Origin: a virus | Length of the DNA: 64,000 nt | IMG/VR virus record: IMGVR_UViG_3300017963_000020 | Location: 1-64,000 of that record | Direction: 5' to 3' (one strand) | Shown: positions 6,872 to 56,616 of the stretch, piece after piece | Position numbering within the stretch: position 1 is the first letter of the stretch | How the letters are laid out: the number at the start of each line of letters is the position of its first letter | Notes under the pieces: model-generated | What the model saw: only the letters and a program-made list of their open reading frames with translations | The model's database searches: none | What the model was told of the DNA's origin: nothing | Program-made: the position numbers and the translations under genes

Positions 6872-6886
6872 ACTCGGTTCCTCCTT

Positions 6887-7423: not shown

Positions 7424-7454
7424 ATCAACCTCAGCGAATTATGAAGGGTCCTTG

Positions 7455-7706
7455 TTAGGCGTTCGCCTTGTGTTCGTTGACCTTCTGCGTGAGAACAGCC
7501 TGTTCTCCGCTATCCAATTCCTCCTCAAAAATGATATCGCAACTGTCCTCGTCACAAACGACGCGGAAATGTTTCCCAGGGAATGCAGGTTCCACTTCTT
7601 TCGCGAGGTAGATCTGTTTCCCTTCACCGTCAACCCTGTTCGGGTTGTCGATGTCGTACGCTCCTTCAGGAAGGAGTTCGCGAGTGTATGAATAAGGAAA
7701 AGGCAT
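7455..7706 (-). CDS. Hypothetical protein, 83 aa
   Basis: A compact acidic protein with one CDEDSC pair and mixed beta content, lying between two fibre genes. No family recognised. It may be a fibre-assembly or small virion protein; only its position supports that. Confidence 0.5.
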   Translation of the reverse strand: MPFPYSYTRELLPEGAYDIDNPNRVDGEGKQIYLAKEVEPAFPGKHFRVVCDEDSCDIIFEEELDSGEQAVLTQKVNEHKANA

Positions 7707-7723
7707 CGGACCTCCTTCGATTC

Positions 7724-23047: not shown

Positions 23048-23120
23048 CAGAAGAAGGGGCTTCGGTCGCTTTCGGATGAGGAGCACTCTACCTATCGGCG
23101 ACCTCCACTCCAGGGCGAAT

Positions 23121-23486
23121 GGAGTCGGTGGGAATCGAACCCACGTCCAGCTCAGGGATCCATGGTCCATCTACGATCGTAGTCGGTTCTTTTCAGCTAC
23201 CGACAGCCTATCCCGTTCTTTCCACGAGCAAGTCAACCCGAGTTAGGGTCGGTGGGATTTAACCGACCTGAGTTCCTAACGGCGGTTCATCCAAGGCCGG
23301 AACGCTCCTCGGTGAACCGGAATGGTCAAGCGACCATTCTGGCGGTCATCGCCTCGCCAAAAGAGGCGGGACGAGCGACCTGTCGCTTTTCATTGGCGAT
23401 TGAATTTGATTGTTCGCTCCTTGACGCGGAAGCATACGGATCGCAGGATTCACTTCACCTCTGCCTGTCGAGCCCTTTACGACCCC
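23121..23486 (-). ncRNA. ssrA: Transfer-messenger RNA (tmRNA)
   Basis: A 366-base one-piece tmRNA. The 5' end reads GGGGTCGTAAAGGGCTCGAC followed by AGG, the tmRNA-specific D-loop signature. The 3' end reads GGACGTGGGTTCGATTCCCA and ends CGACTCC, so the acceptor stem pairs GGGGTCG with CGACTCC (one G-U) and the T-arm is GTGGG/CCCAC around TTCGATT. CCA is not encoded. The best tag frame resumes at GCC (23397) after TCAATC: 23 codons, ANEKRQVA... ending TARMVA, with the TGA at 23326-23328 on a hairpin (GAATGGTC/GACCATTC), as in helix 5 of bacterial tmRNAs. A second frame beginning GCG-AAC-AAT is possible. tmRNA rescues stalled ribosomes; a phage copy could retune tagging. Confidence 0.88.
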
Positions 23487-41398: not shown

Positions 41399-41904
41399 TA
41401 TTTCGTCCTCCTATGTTCGGCTTCCAAACTCTTGTTCGCGTTCTCCAGAGCGTCCAACAGCTTGTTCACTCTGTGCATGACGTATTCGAAAACCCGAGCG
41501 AGCTCTGTGGCCTTCGCCTCGCGCATCCTGTGCTTCTTGCATCTCTTCTCGGCTTCAGCCTGGACCAGCTTGTCCGTGACTCGATCCACGTCTTCCATGC
41601 CGTTCAATCGTATATCAACCTCCTCTTCTGCGATCTTTGCCTTCCTGTTTCCGTATGCCTTGTTCAACCCTCCTTCTGCCCGTCCAGCCTGAACAGCAAG
41701 AAAGACGTTCATCGCAGCTAGATTGATTTGATCCCGGGATAGGATATCCTTTTTGAAAGCCGACACCATGTCGGCAATTCCCATCCCCTGATACTTGCCG
41801 ACAAGCTTCAGGATCTTTTTCAGGAACCTAAACTCGTTCGGTTTGTTTTGGAAATCTTCCCAATCGATTTCCACGGGTTTTATATCAGACCTCTTCTTCG
41901 GCAT
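41398..41904 (-). CDS. Hypothetical helical protein, 168 aa
   Basis: Predicted all-helical, with charged segments and a C-terminal coiled-coil-like part. It overlaps the clamp start by 1 base and the polymerase stop by 25. It may be a replisome accessory, but no family is recognised. Confidence 0.5.
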   Translation of the reverse strand: MPKKRSDIKPVEIDWEDFQNKPNEFRFLKKILKLVGKYQGMGIADMVSAFKKDILSRDQINLAAMNVFLAVQAGRAEGGLNKAYGNRKAKIAEEEVDIRLNGMEDVDRVTDKLVQAEAEKRCKKHRMREAKATELARVFEYVMHRVNKLLDALENANKSLEAEHRRTK

Positions 41905-44900: not shown

Positions 44901-44993
44901 ATCAAGGTCGGCAGCTCTCTTGACCAGAGGCTTGATCTGAGCGCAACCATCCAGGAGTGAGTAGTGAGTATGTTGATGCAGATTCACGAACAT
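41880..44993 (-). CDS. dnaE: DNA polymerase III alpha subunit (DnaE family)
   Basis: A 1037-residue C-family polymerase. The N-terminal PHP domain has FVNLHQHTHYSLLDG, LAITDHGTL and the VEAYVDD element. The palm has the catalytic MPDIDLDFDANKRDRVLAY (about 388-405) and IKFDILGLNTCSII (third Asp, about 540). A helix-hairpin-helix follows, and a C-terminal OB-fold segment (VSGIILNVEIKMSGKSAMVV) is present near 940. It is shorter than the 1160-residue E. coli enzyme, mainly at the C-terminus (no obvious tau-binding domain). The phage therefore encodes its own replicative polymerase, used with a non-bacterial clamp. Confidence 0.92.
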   Translation of the reverse strand: MFVNLHQHTHYSLLDGCAQIKPLVKRAADLDMPSLAITDHGTLAGSLEFYLECKRAGINPIVGVEAYVDDSKSRKEQYRHVVLLAKNYKGYLNLLKIVSEAYVNGFYYRPRTTTEKIFEHGEGLIVSSACMGGIIAKTRGRKQARHEAEKWKDRFGNDFYIEIQFNEIAGQKPVNAMLVSVAEEVGVKVLPTLDAHYVHPEDIQIQDFVLLVRDKKNVDRLKEVAYKARSLYLMTGKELWQKASEFGFNYTKAEFKRLIRSTKEVSDKCDLEIPTGSFHLPDMGMSHSEFKRMVKHEFKQFHFYKKTPIYERRLKKELKIISKLGFHDYFLIVKDLVSWCRQNDIFVGPARGSVAGSLASFVLGITKIDPIKHGLIFERFLNESRVDMPDIDLDFDANKRDRVLAYIADKYGHNKVARVISFGTFGQVGALKDVGRVFKLPQRPINEIASAVYRTGSLKDARKDLSGLLLDFWDEHKKEIRVARRVATMIRNAGVHPCGLIIAPKPVYKFAPLQRVKGDIVSAYSEGFKGRELTEIGLIKFDILGLNTCSIISDALDLVKEHEGEDHTESIWDLDLTDEKLLNQARKGNTTGGFQFETDSATKLLRKVKPRTFYEIAALNAINRPGPLASGAVERFHNHEGMGIENDEIEKALKETRGVLVYQEQVMRLLHKIAGYSLVEADNIRKLAAKKIFSKRKAKKFRKEFMKRCAERIGRDDAKRLWDIIGEFTQYSFNKSHAVSYAYLFFQVLFLKNYHPGPFFVSLLSNTATGTIKDRKHGSEKNKLYRYINEARQYGLKIFGPDINRSGIGFGIEKKGIRFGLSKIKGIKGPTAEEIVSKQPFSSFNDFMNKVSGKVHKGKVVALIQAGCFDCFADRNTIKRTFNSVRKDQVFTLKKTFVEDSVDAFGFILLHPFFFEPVKEYLLGRYCVSSQQLQKFDRWERVNVSGIILNVEIKMSGKSAMVVKLQDHRGDMFIYFDKGAKEKFLPILKPFNILFVNGRVMGTNRILCYAEKDKVFDITKKIGELMEDKSCRRRGLI

Positions 44994-45203: not shown

Positions 45204-45686
45204 TTACAGAAGCCTTCTGGGTTTCTTCTTGCCTTTATCCTTATTCTTTTTCTTCTTGCCTTTATAGACAGCTTTGCCCGTCTTGAAATCGAAGTCTTTG
45301 TAGTTCTGTTCGTAGAACTGCAAAGTAAATCCAGCCTCTATCGCAGCTCTACGATCATGCGATAGGGAATAGAAGTATGACGACCGAACTTTGCCCTTCC
45401 TTGATATCTTCTGCTTCGGCTCCTTCACCAATCTCTGGACGATCGGTATTATATTTCCGACGCTCATGCTTTCCCCTGCGACTAACGTCTCCATCCGCTT
45501 CCCACCGAGCGCGACGAATAGGTTGAACCGACACCGATTGCACAAGAGCCAGTGAAAGCGATACGTCTCGCTAACGAATTCAATCCGCCAGAGTATCCTC
45601 CCGGCCTTCTTGCCGTATGAACAGAGAACACAATGAAGGTTCTCGTCTCCCTTGCTGATTGCCTCCTTTGTTATTTCAATCGGCAT
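45204..45686 (-). CDS. Zinc-binding protein with Lys-rich tail, 160 aa
   Basis: ATG 45686 opens MPIEITKEAISKGDENLHC. CVLC (about 19-22) and CNRC (about 48-51) form a zinc ribbon; a Lys/Arg tail (KKKKNKDKGKKKPRRLL) ends the chain. No family recognised. Confidence 0.5.
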   Translation of the reverse strand: MPIEITKEAISKGDENLHCVLCSYGKKAGRILWRIEFVSETYRFHWLLCNRCRFNLFVALGGKRMETLVAGESMSVGNIIPIVQRLVKEPKQKISRKGKVRSSYFYSLSHDRRAAIEAGFTLQFYEQNYKDFDFKTGKAVYKGKKKKNKDKGKKKPRRLL

Positions 45687-45957
45687 CACGCTCTCCCTTC
45701 TTTGCGAGGAAGGATGCGAACGCCTTTGAATTGAAGGCGAACGAATATCCATCCAATGTCGCGATCTCGAACCAGAGCGGAGGCGAGAGTCGTTTGTCAT
45801 AGACCGCTCTTGCGATCCTGAGATACTTGCCGAGATAGCAACCGACGAGGTCCTGTCCGATCTTCTTGGCTTGCCGTTTATTCCCCTTCATCTTTTTCCA
45901 TTTTGCTTTCGCTTTCTTGAAATCCTCAAGCGTCAGCGTCCTTCCTTGCTTCGCCAT
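45676..45957 (-). CDS. Basic helical protein, 93 aa
   Basis: ATG 45957 follows ATATTGAAAGGAAGAA, a member of the repeated leader family. Lys-rich first half, mixed second half. No family recognised. Confidence 0.5.
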   Translation of the reverse strand: MAKQGRTLTLEDFKKAKAKWKKMKGNKRQAKKIGQDLVGCYLGKYLRIARAVYDKRLSPPLWFEIATLDGYSFAFNSKAFASFLAKKGERDAD

Positions 45958-46183
45958 TGTTCTTCCTTTCAATATCGGCCGAATGTATTTTCCTGGCGAT
46001 CAGTTTGATTGCCTCCTCTTCATCTTGGTTCTTGATCACGTCAATGATCTCGTTCAAGTCCTCCAGATAAATGTAATGACGATGCTTTGGCTGTTCGCCT
46101 CTCGCAATGATGTCCACTTCGTCCAGGGATATCCGCTTGAAGATGTTCGGATATTCCCGAACCAGATCGATCGAGCTAGCCAT
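45926..46183 (-). CDS. Hypothetical protein, 85 aa
   Basis: ATG 46183 follows AAAAGGAGGCG. Alpha/beta, acidic, with a short helix-turn-helix-like start. It overlaps the sigma-like gene by 8 bases. No family recognised. Confidence 0.5.
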   Translation of the reverse strand: MASSIDLVREYPNIFKRISLDEVDIIARGEQPKHRHYIYLEDLNEIIDVIKNQDEEEAIKLIARKIHSADIERKNNGEARKDADA

Positions 46184-46808
46184 CGCTCGCCTCCTTTTCG
46201 ACAAGCATTTTCAGAAAGGAATAGATGGATCGGGACTTCCTATACAGGCTCATAGCTGAGATTCCCATTTCTTTTGCAAGATGTTTCAGAGGCGAGTTCG
46301 GGTCCCGATACATTTTCCAGTAGATGCTCCACGATTCCTTCGTCAACCGTTCCTTGAACAGGTCAAGGAAATCCCCGACAAGGATTTCATTGAAGATGTC
46401 CTGCCCTCCGGGAATCTCGTCCAGTCCTACGGTATTCAACACTTCCCATTCCGTGAACGTGATGACAGGGATTCCAGCAGGGTCGCTCACCTTCCGCATT
46501 ATTTCCTTGACCATCGTACGGAACTTATTCGTTACAGCAATCCGGACGAGCGTCTTGAAGCCCGATACTTCGGGGTCGTATGCTGGGATGACCTTCATTG
46601 AGACATGGATGTAGGCATCCTGCATCAGGTCTTCTATGGTTCGGTCATGGAATAGATGCGCGAACCTATTCGCCACGAACCGAACCGTTGGATAGATTTC
46701 GTGGTAGATACGGGCGAAGGTTCTTTGCTTCCCCCGTTCCTGGTAGCGAAGGACAGCTCTATCCAGAGCAGTCGTCTTCCGCCTCCCCTTCTTCTTCTTT
46801 TCAGCCAT
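46176..46808 (-). CDS. RNA polymerase sigma-70-family factor
   Basis: ATG 46808 follows GGGAGGAGTG (210 aa). Region 2 is evident (IEDLMQDAYIHVSMKVIPAYDPEVSGFKTL, shown in part as LMQDAYIHVSMK; the D-L-x-Q-x-A-Y pattern and a following -10-binding helix). A C-terminal segment (LKHLAKEMGISAMSLYRKSR) is a helix-turn-helix of the region-4 type. Phage-encoded sigma factors of this size (such as T4 gp55) direct late transcription. The basic N-terminus is an extension. It is a candidate for recognising the repeated CATATT leader, by inference only. Confidence 0.65.
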   Translation of the reverse strand: MAEKKKKGRRKTTALDRAVLRYQERGKQRTFARIYHEIYPTVRFVANRFAHLFHDRTIEDLMQDAYIHVSMKVIPAYDPEVSGFKTLVRIAVTNKFRTMVKEIMRKVSDPAGIPVITFTEWEVLNTVGLDEIPGGQDIFNEILVGDFLDLFKERLTKESWSIYWKMYRDPNSPLKHLAKEMGISAMSLYRKSRSIYSFLKMLVEKEASDG

Positions 46809-46812
46809 CGGT

Positions 46813-47442
46813 TCACTCCTCCCATCCGAAAATATAGTCATCACGGAATCTGATTCCGTAGTAAGCAAAGAAGGCAGCTACTTTCTTTCTTCTCCGATTT
46901 AGATATCGCCGATAATGCTTGGACGATTTCTCATTCGGTGTTAGCCTCGCCCTCTTGCTTCTTTTCTTGTAGAACCTATCGCAGACGCGACAGTCCTGTA
47001 TATGTTCTGAATATGTTTTGATCTTTGGAACCTTCAGGCAGGGTATTTTTCCACTCTTACCCTTTCTGACTGCCTTTATCCTTGAATCATGCTTCTTGAG
47101 TATTTGGTTTGTCCTGTATAGACGACAAGCTGGCCTATCAAGGAATAGGTTGATGCAAGTATCGAGGTCGCCGAAGAACTTGCATGACCAGCATCTGTAG
47201 ATCGCCTCCGGTCCTTTACGCTCATACGACTTGCCCTTCTTCTTCGTTCCTTCTTTAGCTGCATCGTGACGGGCGAAGACAAGGGATATGGTCGCTGTGA
47301 GCCTGAGGCAATCGCGCTCCATCTCTTCAACGATTCTTTTGGCCGTCGTTAAAGACCTGGAGTTCCCATGCGATAGGAGGAGTTCTACTGTGTATGCTTG
47401 AGCGGATAGGCGAGTCGCCTTTTGAAATATGTTCCGCTTCAT
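46813..47442 (-). CDS. Cys-rich basic protein, 209 aa
   Basis: Three Cys groups (CWSCKFFGDLDTC, CRLYR, CRVCDRFY) and many Lys/Arg suggest a zinc-binding nucleic-acid protein. Adjacent to the sigma-like gene (4-base gap). No family recognised. Confidence 0.5.
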   Translation of the reverse strand: MKRNIFQKATRLSAQAYTVELLLSHGNSRSLTTAKRIVEEMERDCLRLTATISLVFARHDAAKEGTKKKGKSYERKGPEAIYRCWSCKFFGDLDTCINLFLDRPACRLYRTNQILKKHDSRIKAVRKGKSGKIPCLKVPKIKTYSEHIQDCRVCDRFYKKRSKRARLTPNEKSSKHYRRYLNRRRKKVAAFFAYYGIRFRDDYIFGWEE

Positions 47443-47459
47443 GTCGTCCTCTCTATATT

Positions 47460-47813
47460 CTATTTGTCGTCTTTCAGTTCCTCATCATATTGCGCTCGCC
47501 CCTTTGTTATCTCGATGTTCAGCTGCATGGCGATCGGCGCGATCGGATATTTCTTGCGGAACTTTTTCCAGACCTTGAGCTGCTCGATATAGTACCATCC
47601 ATTCCAGTAGGCCAGTCCAGCAGCTTCCCCTTTCTTCATGACTGCATCCGGGTCGTAGAAATCCCTGCCCTTCTTTCTCTTCGATGGTATGACGACATGA
47701 TTGGTATAGATGAAATGAGCTTGCTTCAGGTTCTTTGCCTTGATCATTGCAGCTGTCGTTCCCTGCAATGATGGCGCAAGGCAGAAGAACGTCTTTAATT
47801 TCTCTTCGGACAT
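47460..47813 (-). CDS. Hypothetical protein, 117 aa
   Basis: ATG 47813 follows the leader CATATTGAAAGG. An alpha/beta protein with a central aromatic-rich region (GLAYWNGWYYIEQLKVWKK). No family recognised. Confidence 0.5.
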   Translation of the reverse strand: MSEEKLKTFFCLAPSLQGTTAAMIKAKNLKQAHFIYTNHVVIPSKRKKGRDFYDPDAVMKKGEAAGLAYWNGWYYIEQLKVWKKFRKKYPIAPIAMQLNIEITKGRAQYDEELKDDK

Positions 47814-47840
47814 GGTATGACCTTTCAATATGAGCCTTCG

Positions 47841-47994
47841 TTAATTCCTGGAGCACTCCGGGCAATCCGTTTCGTCGCATCCGCAGATTCCCATCTCCCT
47901 CGGGCAATCATCCCAGTCATCCTCCTCCACGAGCTTGACGGCCTCTGCTCTGCTGATCCTGGGGGAACCATTTCTCGAATCGGTGTACGACCAT
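47841..47994 (-). pseudogene. Small Cys-rich gene with apparent 1-base frameshift
   Basis: The ATG at 47994 has the expected leader (ATATTTCAAGGAGCC), but its frame stops after 25 codons, while a second frame downstream reads AEAVKLVEEDDWDDCPREMG followed by ICGCDETDCPECSRN. Removing one base from a run of five C (plus-strand G at 47961-47965) joins them into a 50-residue protein with five Cys. This is either a sequence error at the homopolymer, a decayed gene, or a programmed shift. Confidence 0.5.
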
Positions 47995-48070
47995 TTCTGG
48001 CTCCTTGAAATATGAATGGAATATATTCCCGTCGCTCTGCTCCGAACCCTGCTAATGAAGAGCCCGGAGC

Positions 48071-48091
48071 GGAGCGACGGGAAGTCGCTCC
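48071..48091 (-). terminator. Hairpin in gap before Cys-rich gene
   Basis: An 8-bp stem (GGAGCGAC / GTCGCTCC) with a 5-base loop lies in the gap 47995-48161; nothing else but A/T-rich leader sequence is seen there. Confidence 0.4.
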
Positions 48092-48161
48092 GCATGGGTC
48101 GGATCGCCAGCTGGTATCTGGGCGAACCCGATGAGAGGGTTTGAATTGGCCGGAAGGACGA

Positions 48162-48725
48162 TTAGAAATCGTCGTCGTCGTCTTCCTCCTCCTCCTCCTC
48201 TTCGTCGTCGTCGTCGCCGTCCTCGTCTTCGTCTTCCTCCTCCTCGAATTCGTCCTCGTCCTCCTCCTCGTCCTCCTCGTCTTCGTCCTCGTCCTTGGCC
48301 TTCTTCTTCTTGCCCTTCCCCTTGCCCTTCTTCTTGTCGTCCTTCTTGCCCTTCTTGCCCTTCTTGCCCTTCTTGGACTTCTTCTTGGACTTCTCCTCCT
48401 CCTCTTCCTCCTCCTCTTCCTCGTCGTCCTCGAATTCGTCTTCCTCGGGCTCTTCCTCGCGGGACTTCTTGCCCTTCTTGCCCTTCTTGGACTTCTTCTT
48501 CTTGCGTCCCTTGCCGGATTCCTCGCGGAGCTCCTTGACCTTCTGGTCGATCTCCTGTTTCAAGGCGTGGACCGCCTTCTTGAGCTCCAGGAGCACGTTC
48601 TTGAGCGTCCGGCCGACCTTCAGCTTGCCCTCCAGGATCTCGGGGATTTCGCCCTCGACGTAGACCGCCGTGTTCTTGATCCGCTCCGCCGCCTTGATCA
48701 TGGTGTTTTTCTTTTCCTTACCCAT
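48162..48725 (-). CDS. Lys/acidic low-complexity protein ending in DDDDDF
   Basis: A 187-residue protein. The first 70 residues are a normal helical domain (MIKAAERIKNTAVYVEGEI..), then alternating Lys-rich and Glu/Asp-rich blocks to an acidic C-terminus ending DDDDDF. The acidic tail with a terminal Phe recalls SSB/gp2.5 tails. Strong SD GAGGAG. It may bind DNA or protein in the phage nucleoid or act at the replisome; no family is recognised. Confidence 0.55.
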   Translation of the reverse strand: MGKEKKNTMIKAAERIKNTAVYVEGEIPEILEGKLKVGRTLKNVLLELKKAVHALKQEIDQKVKELREESGKGRKKKKSKKGKKGKKSREEEPEEDEFEDDEEEEEEEEEEKSKKKSKKGKKGKKGKKDDKKKGKGKGKKKKAKDEDEDEEDEEEDEDEFEEEEDEDEDGDDDDEEEEEEEDDDDDF

Positions 48726-48800
48726 CGTCTGGATCTCCTCAATTAAGGGTTGAAAGAATTGGGTTTGAATGTTCCTGAAGATTCCGCGTCGTGAAGGGGT

Positions 48801-49181
48801 CTACTTGCCCTTCTTCTTTTTCTTTTTCTTGCCGTCGGTGTCCTTGACCTTGCCCTTGCTCTTCTTGGCCTTCTTCTTCTTGGGCGTCTCGTCGTCGGAC
48901 TCCTTCTTCTTCCGCTTCCGCTTCTTCTTCTTCGGCTTCTCGTCGGCCTCTTCGTCGTCGCCGTTCTTCGTGGAGCCCGGAACGAGCAGCTCCTGGATGA
49001 AGAGGAAGTCCTTTCCGGCCTTCGCCAGCTTGGTCAGCTCCTTGGTGAAATCCCTGGACAGGACGCCTTCCAGCTCCGACAGCTTGGCGAGTGCCTCGAC
49101 GAACTTCGTGTTCCCCCGCGTGATCCTGGTGATGATCTGCTTTTTCATCTTGCCTTTCTTTTTCTTCTTCTTCCGAGCCAT
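48801..49181 (-). CDS. Lys-rich protein, 126 aa
   Basis: Poly-Lys start (MARKKKKKKGKMKK), a folded middle with VEALAKLSELEGVLSRDFTK, and a Lys-rich tail (KKKKKKKGK). Histone-H1-like in composition. Probably nucleic-acid or membrane binding; no family recognised. Confidence 0.55.
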   Translation of the reverse strand: MARKKKKKKGKMKKQIITRITRGNTKFVEALAKLSELEGVLSRDFTKELTKLAKAGKDFLFIQELLVPGSTKNGDDEEADEKPKKKKRKRKKKESDDETPKKKKAKKSKGKVKDTDGKKKKKKKGK

Positions 49182-49235
49182 CTGGCTGTCTCCTAACAGA
49201 GTTTGAAAGAATTGGTTTGAAAATCACCTGCCGGA

Positions 49236-49562
49236 TTACTCCTTGCCCTTTTTCTTCTTCTTCCCTCCTTTCTTGTTCTTGGGTCCCTTCGTTCCGTGCT
49301 CGTGGAAGTAATCCTCCATCCAGGGGATGACGGTCTTGCGGAACGAACGGCCGATCCACTTCACTTCCTCGTAGGAAAGGCGTCCCAGCTTCGCGGGCTT
49401 CCACTCCTCGCTGTCTTCGCTGTTCCGCCTCTGCCTCACAACCTGGATCTTGACCTCACCGCCGTCGTAGGAATAGGCCATGATCCTGACCCGAGTCAGA
49501 CCGAATGTTTTCTTGGGGAACTTCTGCAGTAGCTTGTCCTTCTCTGCTGAGTATCCCGCCAT
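49236..49562 (-). CDS. PC4-like (p15) domain candidate with basic tail, 108 aa
   Basis: ATG 49562 with leader TATATTTTGGAGGG. The middle has KIQVVRQRRNSEDSEEWKPA then 'KLGRLSYEEVKWIGR', similar in layout to PC4/YdbC ssDNA-binding proteins (beta-beta-W-x-P-x-x-G-x-x-L-x-x-E-E). The C-terminus is Lys-rich. Tentative. Confidence 0.4.
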   Translation of the reverse strand: MAGYSAEKDKLLQKFPKKTFGLTRVRIMAYSYDGGEVKIQVVRQRRNSEDSEEWKPAKLGRLSYEEVKWIGRSFRKTVIPWMEDYFHEHGTKGPKNKKGGKKKKKGKE

Positions 49563-49603
49563 GATTGAACCCTCCAAAATATATCCTTGACGAAATTGCC
49601 TTT

Positions 49604-49849
49604 CTACCATTCGATCCGGACAGGACAGCCCGGAATCACGTCGGTCATCCAGTTTTGATTTCCGCAGCTATCGCAAGTCATGAGGATGCCCAAGACAGGA
49701 GCGTCATTCATGTCGTGCAGAAAGACGTTCCCGCAAGAGCATTGAACAATCACCAAGAGCGTCCCGAACTTGCGATAGGCGTTGAGCACAGTCCACTTCC
49801 CAGGAATCAGTCCTTTGAATGTCCTCGGCATCGGTCTCGGCTTCGCCAT
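49604..49849 (-). CDS. Zinc-ribbon protein, 81 aa
   Basis: ATG 49849 with leader CATATTGGAATGG. CSCG (about 37) and CDSCG (about 59) give a ribbon. Possible SH3-like strands before it. No family recognised. Confidence 0.55.
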   Translation of the reverse strand: MAKPRPMPRTFKGLIPGKWTVLNAYRKFGTLLVIVQCSCGNVFLHDMNDAPVLGILMTCDSCGNQNWMTDVIPGCPVRIEW

Positions 49850-50205
49850 CGGTATCCATTCCAATATGGTCGCTGAATATGGTCTGGCTTTGCTGGCCTA
49901 ATAGGACGGGCAGGGGTTTCACCTGCCCGTTCCTATGGTTCTCCCCCTGTAGGGTCGTCGTGGGTCGTCCTGGCTTCGCCTGTAAGCCGATTTGTCCCCC
50001 TTTCCCTCCCTATGGGACCCCTATACCTTTATATTCGCCCCTGCGACGATTTGTGGCCTTTGGTCCCCCCTTTTGCCCCTATATCCTCCCCCTGCGAGCC
50101 CGTATTGCCCCTGTAGGCCGATTTCGCCCCTATTTTGTCCCTATGGTCCTCCCCCTGCCCTTGAATCGGCTTACGGGGCGATTTTGGGGTCCTGGCGTCC
50201 CCCTG
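49850..50205 (-). repeat. G-rich intergenic tract with inverted-repeat flanks
   Basis: A 350-base gap with no gene. The minus strand has more than ten runs of four to six G spaced by about 10-25 bases, including AGGGGGAGGATATAGGGGCA, so its RNA could form G-quadruplexes. GTAAGCCGATT (49982-49992) and AATCGGCTTAC (50164-50174) are perfect inverted copies enclosing 171 bases, with a near copy GTAGGCCGATT at 50112. A terminator-like hairpin (ACGGGCAGG/CCTGCCCGT, 49906-49930) follows. It may be a structured RNA or an origin-like element. Confidence 0.5.
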
Positions 50206-50682
50206 CTAACAGGCATCCCCAGACGTAAGCCAATCGGTCCCGCAGAGAGGACACTTGCCGACGGTATTGCAGTCGGGGCAGAGCGGAGCGTTACAGGCAG
50301 GACAGGCATCCTCCCCAAAGAACCGCTCATTGCATCGCTGACAAGTATGGAGATCCAGGCAGGGTCGCTCTATGTTCCCATCGTCTGCAGGAGCATGAGC
50401 GTGACAGTAGTCGCGTCCCACGAAGGCAAGGTTCTCGCATCCCTCCACATGACACTCCCTGTTCTTGTGCATCGTGCAGTCCGGGCTCTTGCAGTATCCA
50501 TCCTCCCCGTCGGCTTCCTTCCCGCATCCGTTGACGCAGAGCGGGATCGCCTTGCCCTTGAACAGCTGCTCAGCCTTCCGTACGATGTCCTGACCGCCCA
50601 TCGGTCGCAAGGTCTTCCCGCCTCTTTCGGGGTGATCGCCGTTCCATCCTTCCGGGATAATGTAATCTGGCTTCCTTTCCAT
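50206..50682 (-). CDS. Multi-zinc-knuckle protein, 158 aa
   Basis: ATG 50682 with leader CATATTGAAAGG. From residue 49 it has more than ten Cys/His pairs (CVNGCGKEADGEDGYC, CHVEGCENLAF, CQRCNERFFGEDACPAC, CPDCNTVGKCPLCG), enough for three or four zinc sites. It may bind RNA or act as a scaffold. No family recognised. Confidence 0.6.
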   Translation of the reverse strand: MERKPDYIIPEGWNGDHPERGGKTLRPMGGQDIVRKAEQLFKGKAIPLCVNGCGKEADGEDGYCKSPDCTMHKNRECHVEGCENLAFVGRDYCHAHAPADDGNIERPCLDLHTCQRCNERFFGEDACPACNAPLCPDCNTVGKCPLCGTDWLTSGDAC

Positions 50683-50710
50683 GTCTTTCCCTTTCAATAT
50701 GGGTTTGAAT

Positions 50711-51031
50711 TTACCTTTTGAATACCTTGACATTCTCGAGCTTGCAGCTGAAGGACGACCATCGCCCCTCGGTGAACCCGTCGTCCTTGCTGATGCCCCT
50801 CTTGCGGATGTTGATTCGGTAGGGCACGAGGAGATCCTTGGCCTTCCTGCCCGTCTCTTCTGCCTTCAGAGACGCATCCAATTTCCTATTGACTCTGTCT
50901 TCCCTGGAACACGATGCGGTCATCTCCAAGACCGAATCCTGATCCGCCGGATAGCAGGAATCGTACCGAAGCATATCGGTCGGGAAGGCCATCTTGGTCA
51001 CGACCGTCGCCTCATGAATCCAAATCACCAT
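50711..51031 (-). CDS. Hypothetical protein, 106 aa
   Basis: ATG 51031 with leader CATATTAGGAGG. Beta-rich second half; the middle is charged and helical. No family recognised. Confidence 0.5.
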   Translation of the reverse strand: MVIWIHEATVVTKMAFPTDMLRYDSCYPADQDSVLEMTASCSREDRVNRKLDASLKAEETGRKAKDLLVPYRINIRKRGISKDDGFTEGRWSSFSCKLENVKVFKR

Positions 51032-51077
51032 GTCTGTCCTCCTAATATGGTCTCGAATGTGTTCGGGTCAACGGCAA

Positions 51078-51177
51078 GAGGGCCGAAGGCATCGGCCCTC
51101 CAGTCGGCAACCGAAACGATCGGTTGTCGAAACCATATTGAAAGGCTGATGGCTCCGGCAGGTTTTCACCTGCCGGA
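51078..51177 (-). terminator. Three tandem hairpins
   Basis: In the gap 51032-51188 three stems follow each other: GAGGGCCGA/TCGGCCCTC (51078-51100), CGGCAACCGA/TCGGTTGTCG (51105-51129), and TCCGGCAGG/CCTGCCGGA (51154-51177), the last with the UGAAAA loop shared with other hairpins here. They probably end transcription of the gene at 51189. A plus-strand copy of the leader (ATATTGAAAGG near 51137) lies between them. Confidence 0.5.
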
Positions 51178-51188
51178 ACCGATGATGA

Positions 51189-51404
51189 TCAGGACTGAAG
51201 GTATTCCCTATCCTTCTTGCAGAAGAGGTCGTAGACCTCGGTTTCGGTCAGGCCGACCAGCTCGTCCTCGGTGAAGGACAGCTCGTCGTCGTAGAAGGAG
51301 AACATGAAACAGGAATCCCATCCCTCGCAGATGCAGACGAACCTTCTTTTGTATTCCTTGACTCCCTTGTCAATTACTTTGATGACCTTCGTTTCCTTGC
51401 TCAT
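51189..51404 (-). CDS. Hypothetical acidic protein, 71 aa
   Basis: ATG 51404 with leader ATATTGTGGAGG. An alpha/beta protein with Cys/Phe-rich centre (FVCICEGWDSCFMFSF). No family recognised. Confidence 0.5.
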   Translation of the reverse strand: MSKETKVIKVIDKGVKEYKRRFVCICEGWDSCFMFSFYDDELSFTEDELVGLTETEVYDLFCKKDREYLQS

Positions 51405-51428
51405 GGTATCCTCCACAATATCGGCTGT

Positions 51429-51761
51429 CTATTTCTTCTTGGTCTTTTCCTTCGCGATGCGGTCCAGCTCGAGCTCGGCGATACGGTCCTGGTCCTTTTT
51501 GCATTCCGAACAATATCTGCGGATTGGAGGAGCGGAAGGGTTGACGAGCTCAGCGTAGATGGTCGTTCCGCATCCCTCGCAGCTGGAGAGCGGAACAGCC
51601 TTCGGATGATGGCTCACGAAGGCCTCCATACTAATTCCGATCCCCGCTCCAATCTGTTTCCCATCTGCACTCAAGGTCATGTATCCCCAGTCGTAGAACT
51701 CGAAATACTTAACCTCCTTGATAATCCCGTCGTGATCCTTTGCGATTCTCGCTTTGACCAT
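51429..51761 (-). CDS. Zinc-ribbon protein with charged tail, 110 aa
   Basis: ATG 51761 with leader TATATTCTGGAGGG. Beta-rich N-terminus; CEGCG and CSECK near 60-85 form a ribbon; the C-terminus is Lys/Glu-rich. No family recognised. Confidence 0.55.
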   Translation of the reverse strand: MVKARIAKDHDGIIKEVKYFEFYDWGYMTLSADGKQIGAGIGISMEAFVSHHPKAVPLSSCEGCGTTIYAELVNPSAPPIRRYCSECKKDQDRIAELELDRIAKEKTKKK

Positions 51762-51811
51762 GTTTCAACCCTCCAGAATATATGCTGAATTGATTTCCTT
51801 TTAACTAATAA

Positions 51812-51838
51812 CCTCGGCAGGGGTTTCACCTGCCGAGG
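51812..51838 (-). terminator. Hairpin with UGAAA loop
   Basis: A 10-bp stem (CCTCGGCAGG/CCTGCCGAGG) with the loop TGAAACC (minus strand) lies in the gap 51762-51858, following the gene at 51859, and is followed by TTATTAGTT. It belongs to the hairpin family also seen at 49906, 51154 and 52968. Confidence 0.5.
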
Positions 51839-51858
51839 CTGATTGTTTCCCGCCATGA

Positions 51859-52119
51859 TTAACCCGAGGTCGTGGTATCCAGAACCGAAGGCTTCGGCCG
51901 ATGCCTTCTGGGGACGGGCTTCCCGGAATCCAGCCTGTCCCTGAGCGATCTCTTGTACCAATTCGGCATCTTGCCCGGACCCCAGTTCTTGCCGTTCCTT
52001 TTGATCTTCTTCCTCTTGTTCCGATGGCTTCGGTGTCCTGGCTGTCTGCCGTTCGTGCATCCTGCCCTCGTTCCGCCCTTCGTGCAGTTCTTCACGCCTG
52101 ACAAGCTGCTCCCATTCAT
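51859..52119 (-). CDS. Arg/Lys-rich protein, 86 aa
   Basis: ATG 52119 after ATATTTGAAAGGATG. Nearly a third of residues are Arg, Lys or His, with two Cys near the start; the centre reads RSHRNKRKKIKRNGKNWGPG. Probably nucleic-acid binding. No family recognised. Confidence 0.5.
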   Translation of the reverse strand: MNGSSLSGVKNCTKGGTRAGCTNGRQPGHRSHRNKRKKIKRNGKNWGPGKMPNWYKRSLRDRLDSGKPVPRRHRPKPSVLDTTTSG

Positions 52120-52142
52120 GCCGTCATCCTTTCAAATATGGT

Positions 52143-52448
52143 TTAATCGTCTCCGAGTTCCACTTCGTGCTTCACACCGAATACCGTGGACGGGAACGCG
52201 CACATGGAAAGGAGGCCGACGTTCATTTCCGAAATGCACCGACCACAAAGGTTCAGGGGTTTCGCGCTCTTCCTGAACGCTTCGAAGGTCACTTTGAATA
52301 CGACGTCGTGAAGTCCATGGGTCGATCCGGCGTCCGGCATCTCAACGCCATCCTTGTTCTTCCTCTTGCAGAGTTTGCACTTTGTATTCTTGCCCGGATT
52401 CCTTTCGATGCTGAGTCCCGATCCGGCGTGATGTCCTGTGCAGATCAT
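52143..52448 (-). CDS. Zinc-ribbon protein, 101 aa
   Basis: ATG 52448 with leader ATATTTGAAAGGATA. CKLCKRK (about 24) and CGRCI (about 68) form one site; the C-terminal part is hydrophobic and acidic. No family recognised. Confidence 0.5.
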   Translation of the reverse strand: MICTGHHAGSGLSIERNPGKNTKCKLCKRKNKDGVEMPDAGSTHGLHDVVFKVTFEAFRKSAKPLNLCGRCISEMNVGLLSMCAFPSTVFGVKHEVELGDD

Positions 52449-52477
52449 GTCGGTATCCTTTCAAATATGGTTTGAAT

Positions 52478-52921
52478 TTACTTGCTGTCTTCCTTGATCC
52501 AGAAGGCCGGATATTTCGACGCGATGTTGAGCGACTGCCTGATGGTCTTGTATCCGTAGCATTCCGGGCATCGCTTGAAGTGGAATCCTTGCTTGTATCC
52601 GTTCAAGACCAGTTCCGCTCCGGTCCGCGAATGGAACTTGGCTCCGCACGAAGAGCACTCGTGATTCATGTAGGACGTGAAACCCTGCAGCTTCGCGCTC
52701 GGGCAAGCCTCCTGTTCGGGATCGACCGTGAAGACCTTCTTGGCTTTCCCGGTCATGAAGATGCAGACGTTGTCCATGCCGATATAATCGCACATGATGC
52801 AAGTCGGCTGTTCCAGGATATCCAGGTTTCCTTTCATGTAGATCGTGTTGAGGAACTCCTTGACCTGCCCCTCCTCGGCCTTGCATTCCCGTTCCCATTC
52901 GGCCAGTTTCTTTTCGTCCAT
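52478..52921 (-). CDS. Protein with two zinc sites, 147 aa
   Basis: ATG 52921 with leader CATATTGAAAGGGC. CIMC (about 41), CSSCGAKFH (about 89) and CPECYG (about 118) give at least one ribbon plus extra Cys. No family recognised. Confidence 0.55.
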   Translation of the reverse strand: MDEKKLAEWERECKAEEGQVKEFLNTIYMKGNLDILEQPTCIMCDYIGMDNVCIFMTGKAKKVFTVDPEQEACPSAKLQGFTSYMNHECSSCGAKFHSRTGAELVLNGYKQGFHFKRCPECYGYKTIRQSLNIASKYPAFWIKEDSK

Positions 52922-52967
52922 GGTATGCCCTTTCAATATGGTCTGAATGATTGCCTTTAACTAATGA

Positions 52968-52994
52968 AGCGTCGGGGGATTTCACCCCGACGCT
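52968..52994 (-). terminator. Hairpin with UGAAA loop
   Basis: A 10-bp stem (AGCGTCGGGG/CCCCGACGCT) with the minus-strand loop TGAAATC lies after the gene at 53020 and is followed by TCATTAGTTAAAGG, the same tail as the 51812 hairpin. Confidence 0.5.
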
Positions 52995-53019
52995 CCGATT
53001 GGGAAGGAGTGAACCGACT

Positions 53020-53253
53020 TTATTCTACGACGTGCTCTTTGACGTCGTCCAGGTTCCTGGAGTAGATCGCTTCCAGAGCGATGATGCAGAGGTCGCACAC
53101 GAATTCGGTACCGACCTGACCGCCCGAAGGACCGATGATCTTTACCCTTGCATATTCATCGTCCTCCTGCGGAACGTTCCCGCAGATCGTGCAAGTCGGG
53201 GTCGCAACCCCTTCCTGAACCTCCACGATATCGATCTTGATTCGCTTCTTCAT
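53020..53253 (-). CDS. Zinc-ribbon protein, 77 aa
   Basis: ATG 53253 with leader ATATTCGAGAGGATA. CTICG (about 21) and CDLCI (about 53) form a ribbon in an acidic alpha/beta protein. No family recognised. Confidence 0.55.
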   Translation of the reverse strand: MKKRIKIDIVEVQEGVATPTCTICGNVPQEDDEYARVKIIGPSGGQVGTEFVCDLCIIALEAIYSRNLDDVKEHVVE

Positions 53254-53277
53254 GGTATCCTCTCGAATATGGTTTGT

Positions 53278-53499
53278 CTATGTCAGCTGGTCTTGGAAAA
53301 TCCGCTTCGCCTCTTTCACCCGTTCCCGCATCGTTCTCAGGTTGTCAGCCTCGGTGCAATAGAACTCTTTCCTTTCACACCATCTGTATTTCCGCTCCTC
53401 GATTGCGTCCAGGAGCTTTTCCAGGAGATCGTTGATGTTCCTTCGGGATCGCATCGTTTCCAATTTCTTTTTCATGTGCGGAGTGAGCTTGCGTTCCAT
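53278..53499 (-). CDS. Helical basic protein, 73 aa
   Basis: ATG 53499 with leader CATATTTGAAAGGC. All-helical with a coiled-coil-like middle (NINDLLEKLLDAIEERKY). No family recognised. Confidence 0.5.
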   Translation of the reverse strand: MERKLTPHMKKKLETMRSRRNINDLLEKLLDAIEERKYRWCERKEFYCTEADNLRTMRERVKEAKRIFQDQLT

Positions 53500-53528
53500 C
53501 TGACTGCCTTTCAAATATGGTCTTCGGT

Positions 53529-53567
53529 ATCTGCTGGCTGGAATGCTGTTCTACTGCATGAGAGCCA
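53529..53567 (+). repeat. Left arm of inverted repeat flanking the Lys-rich gene
   Basis: This 39-base arm (starts ATCTGCTGGCTGGAATGCTG and ends ACTGCATGAGAGCCA) matches in inverted orientation the 36-base arm at 54483-54518, with two substitutions and a 3-base gap. The two arms enclose 915 bases including the complete gene 53608-54423. Confidence 0.7.
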
Positions 53568-53607
53568 CGATATTCACTTGCGTTCCCAGATCGGTGTTCC
53601 GTTCAGG

Positions 53608-54423
53608 TTAGTTCTCCACGATCTCCATGAGGCTGTTCGCCTCCAGGATGTCCGCCTCCAGCTGTTCCTTCCGCTTGCCGATGGCGTTCAGTTCCTTGTT
53701 CATGGAGCGGATGAGCTTCCCGATGGCCTTCTTGATCTGGGGGATGGACATGGACTTCTTCGCCTTGCGGTTCTTGCGGTTCTTCTTGGTCTTCTTGGAG
53801 GTCTTCTTGCTCTTGCCCTTCGGCATCTGCTCGGCGGTCGGGTAATCGTGGTCGGCCGTCAGCTTGATGTACTGCTCGGCCTCCCGGATGCCCTTGCCGT
53901 AGAGCTCGAAGAACTGATTGTAGACCTTGAAGAACGCCTTCTGCGCCTTGCTCCGCGCCTTGCCCTTCGCATTCAGGGCGACGTTCAAGGCCTCCAGGAC
54001 CTCGGCCTTCTTCGCCTTCTTGCCCGTCAGCTTCTTGTCGGCCTTCGGCTTGGACGCCTTCTTGCCCTTGGCCTTCTTCGGCGTGTCGTCCACGACCTTG
54101 ATCTTGACGGGGACCAGGAAGCGTTCCGCGTCGCGGATGGTCTTGCCGAACGTGTCGGTGTAGATTCCGTAGAGCTTCGCGACCTTCTTGCGGTTCTCCT
54201 CCTTGATCGCCTCCAGGATCTGCTTCCGCAGTCCCCGACGGCTCTGCGAAGGAGTCACTTCCTTGCCCTTCTTGCCCTTCTTCGTGGCCTTCTTGTTCTT
54301 CTTGCTGTCCTTGACCTTCTTGCCGGACTTCTTGGCTTTCTTGTTCTTCTTCGTGGTCTTCGTGGCCTTGGAATCCTTGATGGTCTGCATGAGGTCGTTG
54401 ATGGCCTTTTCGAGCTTCGTCAT
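53608..54423 (-). CDS. Lys-rich protein with two internal repeats, 271 aa
   Basis: A histone-like composition: Lys is the most abundant residue, with blocks such as KKTSKKTKKNRKNRKAKK. Two similar segments, VAKLYGIYTDTFGKTIRDAE (about 75-95) and FFKVYNQFFELYGKGIREAE (about 163-182), each end in an 'F/Y-G-K-x-I-R-x-A-E-x-(F/Y)' motif; the spacing suggests two copies of a small helical domain joined by Lys-rich linkers. A variant leader (CTATTTCAAAGGGCAAAG) and SD AGGAGA are present. It may compact DNA or bind RNA. It is flanked by a 36-39 base inverted repeat. Confidence 0.55.
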   Translation of the reverse strand: MTKLEKAINDLMQTIKDSKATKTTKKNKKAKKSGKKVKDSKKNKKATKKGKKGKEVTPSQSRRGLRKQILEAIKEENRKKVAKLYGIYTDTFGKTIRDAERFLVPVKIKVVDDTPKKAKGKKASKPKADKKLTGKKAKKAEVLEALNVALNAKGKARSKAQKAFFKVYNQFFELYGKGIREAEQYIKLTADHDYPTAEQMPKGKSKKTSKKTKKNRKNRKAKKSMSIPQIKKAIGKLIRSMNKELNAIGKRKEQLEADILEANSLMEIVEN

Positions 54424-54482
54424 GGTTGAATCTCCTGTTTATCTTTGCCCTTTGAAATAGGGCATGACTTGACTGACTGACT

Positions 54483-54518
54483 TGGCTCTCATGCAGGACA
54501 GCACTCCAGCCAGCAGAT
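54483..54518 (-). repeat. Right arm of inverted repeat flanking the Lys-rich gene
   Basis: On the minus strand it reads ATCTGCTGGCTGGAGTGCTG... to GAGAGCCA. It is the inverted partner of 53529-53567 and lies at the left edge of the structured non-coding region. Confidence 0.7.
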
Positions 54519-55415
54519 CGGCCGGAACCGATCTGTCTGGCGTCGTCAGGCTTCGCGTGTCCGCTACTCCGTTCTCTCCCCGATACCTATCCGCTTGATC
54601 AAGGGCGAGCTTGCTCATACTCCCTTGCCCCTATCGGTCGTCCCTTTGTTTGCCGACGTCCCGTTCAACCGGAGCATCCGGGGAACGCAAGGTTATTCGG
54701 CTTTCATTTATTGAACGCCGGATAGGGGAGAGCGAATGATATGGTTTCGGTCGGTGGATTAGTCCGACCCGATTTTTCCAGACACGTTTAAGGGGATGTC
54801 TGGTCCTCTCGGCTATTCCTTGAAATAGACTTCCGGGTTTTTGTTTCAAGTACGAGGCCCGGAGACCTCTGGGCGACGTGACATAACAGCACTCGCGTTC
54901 GTGCGTCTGCTCGTTTCCTTGTCTGCCTGTCTTTCGAGCTATGGTCGGGTCATCTCGCGTCCCTTGCGCTGATGCGCTTTCGAGCTTGGTCGGGACTGCA
55001 CTATCACCCGTGAATCAGGCAATCAAGGTTCGGTGGCTGACGCCTTCCGGCGAGCCTGACCTTTCGCCCCTTATGACGTTTCCGAGTTACTCCCCGCGAA
55101 GCCTTCTTGCGATCTCCCTCGGCAGAGGGTATTCGCGCTCAGGCTAAAGACCGGGACTGAACCCTGCGTCTTTCCTGCCTCGGCTCCGCAGCTTGCAGAG
55201 GAGCCTCCTGGCGATCAGCCTTTCACAGTTTCGTCCGTCCCCCCTTCTGCTGTCTCGCGACATGGAAGGAGCTAGGCGTCCACCCCTACTCCAGCCGATC
55301 GATCGGTCCAGGCTAACTCCCGTTCCGCTCGGTCTCGTATTTGTCAAAGATCAGTGTCGTGCTCTGCCGAGCACAGCTGAAGGGTCGGCCGTCAATGTTT
55401 TCGTCAGGCCGACCC
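54514..55415 (-). ncRNA. Large structured non-coding RNA candidate (about 900 nt)
   Basis: No gene with an SD or normal composition exists on either strand, yet the region is dense with exact complementary segments. A long-range 14-bp helix pairs 54574-54580 and 54587-54593 with 54719-54732. Inside it are 54662-54668/54711-54717, 54600-54605/54622-54627 and 54669-54673/54677-54681. Further hairpins: 54514-54521/54528-54535, 54749-54754/54764-54769, 54778-54784/54797-54803, 54819-54825/54844-54850, 55035-55056 (GGAA loop on the minus strand), 55095-55100/55132-55137 around 55116-55129, 55146-55151/55168-55173, 55182-55187/55200-55205, 55359-55364/55369-55374 and 55382-55390/55407-55415. The strand is inferred from the surrounding operon and the GNRA loop. 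It may be a giant 'ornate' RNA such as GOLLD or ROOL, or new. Confidence 0.5.
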
Positions 55416-55423
55416 GATTGTGT

Positions 55424-55612
55424 TTAGTCGTGCAGACAGGGTCCAAGGTAACGGTCCATGAAATTGGCGAGCTCCTCGGCTCCGTGAGTAATCAGGGCAT
55501 CCCTGAGCTTCTTGTTCTTCTGGTAGTGTTCCGCGTCATGCAAGGAACGGAGCACAGACTCCAGATCCTTCAGGGAGCCGAACAGAGCGTTGATCCTTTC
55601 TTCCCTTGTCAT
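55424..55612 (-). CDS. Hypothetical protein, 62 aa
   Basis: ATG 55612 with leader CATATTTGAAAGGC. A helical acidic protein (MTREERINALFGSLKDLESV...). It ends 9 bases before the structured region. No family recognised. Confidence 0.5.
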   Translation of the reverse strand: MTREERINALFGSLKDLESVLRSLHDAEHYQKNKKLRDALITHGAEELANFMDRYLGPCLHD

Positions 55613-55694
55613 GTCTTTGCCTTTCAAATATGGTCTCGAATGTTTTGCCTTGCTGATGGCCGGAGGAACGGGTCGGTCCCTCCGACCGATGGTG

Positions 55695-56141
55695 TTATTT
55701 GTGCTTCCGCGCCCACGATGCCCTCTTTGCGAGCTCCCTCCGTACGACGTCGATCTCTTTTGCAACCGCATCGGTCAAGGAGGCGGAAGCCTGAATGAAG
55801 GTCCGCTCGAGACTTGTCTTGCGTCTCCGGAGCCGAGCGACCGACCACGGACGATAGGCGGAAGGCTTCACGGTGAAGAACCTATCGCTTGCTTCCTTCT
55901 CCTCCAGGTTCCTTGCGATCGCCTGTCCTTTCGCGCTCCACTTACAGCAAGCGGAAACGTATCGGCCGGAGTGTTCGGGCGTGTCGGCGAAGGGCAATCC
56001 TTCGACGTGATACTGTCTGTTCGTGCCGAGCCCGTAGGGTCCGGACACGCTGACGTCGGCCAGCTCCTCCTTGAGAAATTCCTGCCTTGCTTCTTCCATG
56101 GTACGTTTGAACATCTCTCTGCAGAAGTCATGGTCGCTCAT
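55695..56141 (-). CDS. Hypothetical protein, 148 aa
   Basis: ATG 56141 with leader GTACTTGAAAGGCG. N-terminal helix, then a segment with GRYVSACCKWSAKGQAIARN (about 59-78) and a basic C-terminus (RRELAKRASWARKHK). No family recognised. Confidence 0.5.
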   Translation of the reverse strand: MSDHDFCREMFKRTMEEARQEFLKEELADVSVSGPYGLGTNRQYHVEGLPFADTPEHSGRYVSACCKWSAKGQAIARNLEEKEASDRFFTVKPSAYRPWSVARLRRRKTSLERTFIQASASLTDAVAKEIDVVRRELAKRASWARKHK

Positions 56142-56184
56142 GGTATCGCCTTTCAAGTACGGGTTTGAATGTCGGTCTCGAATG

Positions 56185-56286
56185 TTAGACGCCGAAGACT
56201 GCCTTGACTGCCTTGCGGAACCATCCCCATTTCATTTCCCGTTCCCTCTGCAAGTATCGCTTCCAGTTTTCAGTCGGTCCGGCCAT
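56185..56286 (-). CDS. Miniprotein, 33 aa
   Basis: ATG 56286 with leader ATATTGAAGGAGATACC. Only 33 residues (MAGPTENWKRYLQREREM then KWGWFRKAVKAVFGV), an amphipathic basic helix that could bind membrane or RNA. Its leader is the main reason to believe it is translated. Confidence 0.5.
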   Translation of the reverse strand: MAGPTENWKRYLQREREMKWGWFRKAVKAVFGV

Positions 56287-56324
56287 CGGTATCTCCTTCA
56301 ATATCGGTTCGAATGTTTTTGGTA

Positions 56325-56561
56325 TTAGTTCCGGGTCGGATTGCCCTTCGGCGTGAAACCCATCTCGCGGAGGAGTCGGTAGGCTTCCTTCGCGTCGTCC
56401 CATCTGCCCTCGGCTTCCAAGGCCAGAGCGAACGTCCAAAGCTTCCGCGCCTTGCCGATGGTCTTCAGTCTTTGCACGACCCTGTCTCCCATCGTACGGA
56501 TGCGGTTCAGTTCGTGCGCGAACATCCTGTCTGTCGGTTCTGCGAGTGCTGTGCGGTTCAT
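56325..56561 (-). CDS. Hypothetical protein, 78 aa
   Basis: ATG 56561 with a perfect leader (CATATTGAAAGGAGATACC). A helical protein with a tetratricopeptide-like A/L pattern (FALALEAEGRWDDAKEAYRL). It is the first gene after the candidate promoter at 56617. No named family. Confidence 0.5.
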   Translation of the reverse strand: MNRTALAEPTDRMFAHELNRIRTMGDRVVQRLKTIGKARKLWTFALALEAEGRWDDAKEAYRLLREMGFTPKGNPTRN

Positions 56562-56584
56562 GGTATCTCCTTTCAATATGGTCT
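56562..56584 (-). promoter_or_regulatory. Archetype of repeated leader: ACCATATTGAAAGGAGATACC
   Basis: On the minus strand ACCATATTGAAAGGAGATAC plus C precedes the ATG at 56561. Variants with the same CATATT-x0-1-GAAAGG core, at the same distance to the ATG and often preceded by CATTCRARAC, occur before about 18 other genes between 45.9 and 56.6 kb. It contains the SD and an upstream A/T motif. Whether it is a -10 box, a ribosome enhancer or a processing site is unknown. Confidence 0.6.
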
Positions 56585-56616
56585 TGCCTTTGTTTATGTC
56601 TTTGCCCTTCACCTAC

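Follow-up and report, generated by a model that had tools for sequence, protein, structure and literature searches.

Introduction

The Start-Associated Sequences (SAS) of cluster K mycobacteriophages have a 13-bp consensus (GGGATAGGAGCCC) and occur in 11-19 copies per genome; they contain the Shine-Dalgarno sequence (SD), are conserved beyond it and lie 3-9 nt before the starts of some non-structural genes. About half of them are preceded by a 17-bp inverted repeat (ESAS) that carries SigA-like promoter hexamers (PMC11373665; PMC12699233). The role of SAS is still called ill-defined (PMC11373665). In phage T4, many early genes have unstructured, AU-rich start regions to which RegA binds, and RegB cuts in their SD (PMC3014915). 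In Escherichia coli, AU-rich enhancers located upstream of the SD cooperate with it (PMC2176067).

Here we describe a leader of about 25 letters that is repeated before the genes of a small-gene block in an uncultured phage, and which is probably a standard translation-initiation module associated with gene starts. The stretch analysed (the window, 64,000 nt) corresponds to bases 1-64000 of the 88,133-bp virus record IMGVR_UViG_3300017963_000020; the block occupies 45.9-56.6 kb. Like SAS, the leader lies a few nt from the start, in one orientation with a rare inverted copy, and precedes non-structural genes of unrelated families; for both, the function is unproven.

A leader repeated at the gene starts of one block

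Genes were called on the whole record, and the 24 starts in the block were compared with the 108 others. The extended consensus of the leader is ATTCRARACC-ATATT(T)-GAAAGG-N-ATACC-ATG. ATATT was found upstream of 18 of the 24 block starts and of 5 of the 108 elsewhere (Fisher p=5e-13); the 18 take in the sigma factor gene starting at 46808, which has ATATT only at 27 nt and is not counted as having a leader. The sequence CC.?ATATT precedes 13/24 block starts and 0/108 elsewhere (p=8e-12), and TACC stands directly 5' of the ATG in 9/24 and 1/108, respectively (p=5e-7). No enrichment in the block was detected for AGGAG/GGAGG (12/24 vs 52/108). An earlier note, made from the sequence of this stretch alone, had described a repeated leader before about 18 small genes, a claim that these counts bear out with the corrections given below. 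The CATTCRARAC that it saw frequently preceding the core is real but, scored as ATTCR, it was present at only 12/24 block starts, compared with 16/108 elsewhere.

In every leader ATATT starts 17-20 nt 5' of the ATG. The ATG had been placed 6-10 bases after the core; the gap measured from SD to ATG is mostly 5-9 nt, with a mode of 7.

In the 88-kb record the minus strand holds nine copies of the exact core, ATATTT?GAAAGG, each at the start of a block gene; the plus strand holds a single one (51135). In 300 simulations with an order-2 Markov model of the block, exact cores numbered 0.01 on average and 1 at most. All leaders are on the minus strand, so that each gene starts at the higher coordinate of its open reading frame (ORF). 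Those with the exact core are located at 56562..56590 (ACCATATTGAAAGGAGATACC-ATG; ORF 56325-56561), 55613..55643 (ORF 55424-55612), 53500..53526 (ORF 53278-53499), 52922..52950 (ORF 52478-52921), 52449..52480 (ORF 52143-52448), 52120..52145 (ORF 51859-52119), 50683..50711 (ORF 50206-50682), 47814..47841 (ORF 47460-47813) and 45958..45987 (ORF 45676-45957), the last lying inside the 3' end of ORF 45926-46183.

At six more of the starts for which the core had been listed, variants were found instead: 56287..56316 (GATATTGAAGGAG / GAAGGAG; ORF 56185-56286), 56142..56172 (GTACTTGAAAGG, with the CATTCRARACC half duplicated upstream; ORF 55695-56141), 53254..53278 (TTCGAGAGG / ATATTCGAGAGG; ORF 53020-53253), 51405..51432 (TTGTGGAGG / GATATTGTGGAGG; ORF 51189-51404), 51032..51060 (TTAGGAGG / ATATTAGGAGG; ORF 50711-51031) and 49850..49890 (TTGGAATGG, a tandem half copy giving two ATATT; ORF 49604-49849). 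The variants at 51762..51793 (TATATTCTGGAGG; ORF 51429-51761) and 49563..49592 (TATATTTTGGAGG; ORF 49236-49562) are weaker, as is a possible leader with two ATATT at 47995..48026, before the short ORF 47917-47994. The leader variant claimed for the start at 54423 is not in register: a decayed copy (CCTATTTCAAAGGGCAAAGATAA, 54441..54462, minus strand) lies upstream of ORF 53608-54423 but does not provide its SD, which is a different GGAG nearer to the start.

When the window genome was searched with a leader profile, the best 13 matches all abutted gene starts on the coding strand, and the 14th was the inverted copy at 51126-51145; no match in the reversed-genome control was below E 3.6. Leave-one-out testing recovered 13 of the 18 leaders at E 0.5 or better. 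The leader of 47813 was weaker (E 1.6), those of 56141 and 51761 were not recovered, and those of 49562 and 47994 (E 40 for the latter) were very weak or not recovered. The motif search on gene starts that the earlier note had proposed was performed de novo, by expectation-maximization, on all 134 start regions, and its outcome depended on motif length: the 12-nt motif was the SD alone and the 18-nt motif was gcccatattgnaaAGGaa.

Conservation of the leader in a collinear phage

No near match to the genome was found among 50,697 phage records, and its DnaE polymerase shares at most about 35% identity with the DnaE of known phages. Single-protein searches with the sigma factor, DnaE and terminase gave no relatives. 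Alignment of DnaE identified one, IMGVR_UViG_3300031566_000077 (G001; 46,982 bp), with a DnaE 63% identical. The region that runs from the primase to the structural genes, these included, is collinear in G001 and the window genome. In the window, the block is flanked by a DnaB/UDG/DnaG-type primase group (57-61 kb) on one side and, on the other, by a phage RNA polymerase sigma factor at its downstream end (46176..46808, minus strand; phrog_1740, E 3.7e-10; Sigma70_r2 just below the cut-off) followed by DnaE (41880-44993); the block of G001 likewise lies between primase and sigma/DnaE.

Six of the window block genes (49562, 48725, 47813, 47442, 46808 and 46183) have clear homologs in the G001 block; a few of the others have weak ones, and the rest have none. 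The homolog of 49562 in G001 has no leader. No paralogy was detected when the block proteins were compared with each other. Since most block proteins are without a homolog in the G001 block and are not paralogs of one another, the leader was not simply inherited together with related genes.

The same leader is present before small genes of G001, for example as CCCATATTTGAAAGGAAATAAAATG, ACTCATATTGGAAAGGAAATACCATG, CCCATATTGGAAAGGAAATATCATG and ATCCATATAGAAAGGAGATACCATG. With one mismatch allowed, GAAAGGAAATANNATG has 11 sites in the 47-kb contig, all on the coding strand and 10 of them in the block; the reversed pattern, used as control, gave 0 sites. The three best matches of the window leader profile on G001 are block gene starts (E 0.003-0.02). 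In the reciprocal search, the eight best matches of the G001 block-leader profile on the window genome are all gene starts, seven in the block and one at 32399. Across the two phages, conservation is highest for the GAAAGG SD, the TT preceding it and the C that precedes the ATG. ATATT is less kept in G001, where it is the least conserved part of the core and GAAAGG and AAATAYC are the most conserved. The presence of the leader in G001 is the strongest evidence that it has been maintained and did not arise by chance in a single genome. The earlier suggestion that more than a plain SD is involved was supported: the shared sequence is found in a single block, reaches beyond the SD in both directions and persists in a relative with a largely unrelated set of small genes.

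Alignment of the capsid protein identified G002 and G003 (capsid 78%) and the short contig G004 (capsid 83%). These contain structural modules only and no part of the block, and the ATATT-SD-ATG leader is absent from the sequence covered. No relative was found among genome contigs. The search of other phages that the earlier note had proposed was thus positive for the G001 block, but exact motif searches of 2.9 million viral contigs, which gave 89 and 31 stretches (the 89 being, by our own estimate, about the number expected by chance), yielded no other contig with an array of leaders. A double match (L050) was not upstream of start codons.

In the block of the relative, two small genes (L135 1577-1759 and 4002-4183), 59% identical and each with its own leader, are paralogous; this pair is a duplication of a leader gene.

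The leader as a probable part of the messenger RNA

Leaders without GAAAGG carry another SD: AGGAGG at 51031, GGAGG at 51404 and AAGGAG at 47994. A lost GAAAGG is thus replaced by another SD, and the leader keeps a fixed position relative to the ATG. It follows that the mRNA must contain the SD, and a -10 box at ATATT would not allow this. A promoter recognised by the sigma factor encoded at 46176-46808, with ATATT as -10 box and a nearly leaderless transcript for each gene, is therefore very improbable, even though a sigma factor is present in the block of both phages and the core is TATATT-like. With transcripts beginning around -6 to -9, the SD that every variant keeps would be lost; in all leaders the SD-like part is located at or before the start expected some 7 nt after the -10 box. 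No -35-like element was present at the proper distance, sigma-70-type sites showed no clear excess (11 vs 7.6 expected), and the spacing to the ATG is fixed even where the leader lies inside an upstream gene (45957). Also disfavouring the -10 box raised by the earlier note, ATATT is the core part that G001 keeps least, while GAAAGG and the spacer are kept.

The properties of the leader agree better with a translation enhancer, the best fit among the options that the earlier note had listed, whose overall interpretation was partly supported. An AU-rich, weakly structured stretch was found just 5' of the SD: leader GC is 40%, against 48% elsewhere, and the minimum free energy predicted for the -35..+25 region is -6.2 kcal/mol for leader starts and -9.7 kcal/mol for other genes (p=1e-4). 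The module would consist of an AU-rich, weakly structured RACC-ATATT, an SD (GAAAGG in most cases and a different purine SD in the others), a spacer of some 7 nt, often ATACC, and the ATG. It would act in the mRNA, the AU-rich enhancer and the SD recruiting the 30S subunit, and each cistron of a polycistronic message would thereby initiate efficiently and independently. The leader would thus raise translation, and presumably does so without a dedicated factor. The arrangement resembles that of the E. coli enhancers (PMC2176067) in the AU-rich stretch directly 5' of the SD, the short spacer and the weak structure; it differs in that many genes of the block share a near-identical sequence, which is also kept across phages.

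Several points speak against this interpretation. The weaker folding is partly due to the lower GC content of the leaders, and in the predicted structures the SD is no more accessible in leader starts. The sequence similarity from gene to gene (CC, ATACC) exceeds what a plain enhancer needs and hints at a specific binder or at leaders copied along with cassettes. Finally, G001 is the only relative found that covers the block.

Two other forms of base pairing were considered and rejected. A leader hairpin of the type TTCRR...YYGAA was discarded, because the matched arms showed no pairing advantage over arms exchanged between leaders (fraction 0.53), and because the hairpin is missing from most minimum-energy folds; a conserved stem with compensatory changes, as in an RNA hairpin operator, was not found in the leaders. 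Extended pairing with an unusual 16S rRNA tail (CCUUUCAAUAU) does not provide a general explanation, as the DNA sequence GATCACCTCCTTTCAATAT is present in only 11 stretches of 84,980 genomes.

Hairpins upstream of leaders

GC-rich intergenic hairpins were found on the minus strand of the block at 49906..49930 (followed by TATTAG), 51151..51180 (ATCAG), 51810..51840 (ATTAG) and 52966..52996 (ATTAG), these four with a TGAAA-type loop, and at 55658..55687 (ATCAG). Matching hairpins are present on the plus strand of the relative (L135 ~2606-2637, 4979-5010 and 5290-5319). The loop often contains GAAA in these structures common to both phages, (T)AT(T/C)AG follows within a few bases 3', and the hairpins split the block into groups of a few genes; they may function in termination, processing or protein binding.

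Their position upstream of several leaders in both phages is that of 3'-end protectors, as expected if an endonuclease cut the polycistronic RNA at ATATT and generated short mRNAs beginning just 5' of the SD. ATATT is AU-rich and weakly structured, and it fits an RNase E-type site, RN|WUU, a consensus which may not be that of the host. RNA processing as the function of the leader is nevertheless improbable: ATATT is poorly kept in the leaders of the relative, and the hairpins stand upstream of only some leaders.

A different structure was predicted at 51031. In the minus-strand transcript, the inverted leader copy (51126..51145, plus strand) is complementary to the 51031 leader, over whose SD it folds. 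The two pair in a 171-nt fold (51020-51190, minus strand; -87.7 kcal/mol, z -9.4) in which the SD would be buried, and this fold could possibly serve as an on/off switch.

Leader copies and gene turnover

Between the two collinear phages, the genes of the block have turned over while the leaders stayed. Tandem halves (49849, 47994, 56141), the inverted copy (51126-51145) and the decayed copy (54462-54441) were also observed. Gene 45957 is absent from G001, its leader lies inside the 3' end of gene 46183, and the homology of 46183 to the relative fades at the left edge of this leader. These observations lend circumstantial support to the recombination seam suggested by the earlier note, in which the leader would be kept mainly as homology for the swapping of gene cassettes. 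However, homology need require neither a fixed distance to the ATG nor substitutions compatible with an SD, and the relative is too distant for junctions to be mapped. Since the G001 sequence at 45957 (the start region of DnaE) is partly alignable with the leader, that junction is suggestive only. Recombination as the main function seems very unlikely to us and may be a consequence instead. It is plausible that the leader travels with incoming genes as their cassettes move, possibly as a by-product.

Other features of the two genomes

The record begins and ends with the same 123 bases, as expected of an assembly that is complete and either circular or terminally redundant. Virtually all genes called on its 88,133 bp are on the minus strand. 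The following features of the window are also on that strand. Lysine-rich low-complexity proteins (KKGKKGKK) are encoded at 48162-48725, which has an acidic tail, 48801-49181 and 53608-54423; similar ones occur in the same order in the relative. The region 49935-50205 is non-coding and has dense GGGG runs (AGGGGGAGGA...), possibly G-quadruplexes or an origin. Between leader genes, about 0.9 kb (54440-55400) has no convincing ORF and begins with TGATCTTTGACAAA, which resembles the boxA antitermination site of rRNA. This region has sequence islands in common with two segments of the relative (L135 ~720-1500 and ~3080-3330), gave no Rfam match at E<1, and is a candidate for a large structured phage RNA.

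A phage-borne transfer-messenger RNA with an unusual tag (ANEKRQVARPASFGEAMTARMVA) was predicted by ARAGORN at 23120-23486; 3' of it are a GC-rich hairpin, TTAG and then a TATATTC-GGAG start region. The proteins starting at 6871, 7423 and 8998 (window 5597-8998) have repeated domains in common. In the relative, DnaE is interrupted by about 1.3 kb (L135 12208-13495) after the FNK of an AYSFNK-SHA-like motif; the interruption has intein-like ends, the ORF is apparently broken at 12493, and the site is one at which DnaE inteins are known.

Discussion

The leader resembles the start regions targeted by RegA and RegB of T4 (PMC3014915) in that one class of start sequence is common to many phage genes in non-structural regions. 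It differs from them in its SD, mostly GAAAGG and not GGAG, and no RegA or RegB homolog was found among the proteins tested. An RNA-binding regulator, encoded by phage or host, might switch the entire block at once, in the way that many start regions are targets of RegA and RegB in T4 (PMC3014915); this could explain why conservation exceeds the needs of an SD, lies on both sides of it, is limited to one block and is kept in the relative. Some leaders (51761, 49562) vary strongly in sequence, and no family match of the tested block proteins points to a candidate for such a regulator; we consider it unlikely, but it is the foremost alternative to the translation enhancer. A further proposal, which we hold to be rather doubtful, is that the leader would tag genes for a phage-encoded translational switch, an RNA-binding factor or a modified ribosome selectively translating or shutting off all tagged genes; captured genes would join the regulon through the tag at the left edge of their cassette.

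Compared with SAS, the leader is likewise found near the starts of a subset of genes and conserved beyond the SD (18/24 vs 5/108), and it is kept in a related phage, G001, before different gene families. The SAS consensus GGGATAGGAGCCC is not present; the sequence here is ACCATATT(T)GAAAGG..ATACC. No ESAS-type 17-bp inverted repeat with a promoter was found at the leaders, only the GC-rich hairpins with ATYAG before some of them. For these two reasons the leader was not filed as a member of SAS. It differs further in that its conserved extra part is AU-rich and lies upstream of the SD, and in that the phage shows no relationship to known phages in its DNA. By analogy, the leader would work like SAS with a different sequence. 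No further phage examples of such leaders were found in the literature searched, which is weak evidence of absence.

SAS have been a long-standing puzzle from one mycobacteriophage group, and the leader described here represents a second, independent case, in an uncultured lineage. It provides a sequence handle for finding such genes, and it sets a mere strong start region against a regulated tag. The same layout with a different sequence, conserved between phages with mostly different small genes, suggests that a shared start tag for blocks of fast-changing small genes has evolved repeatedly in phages.

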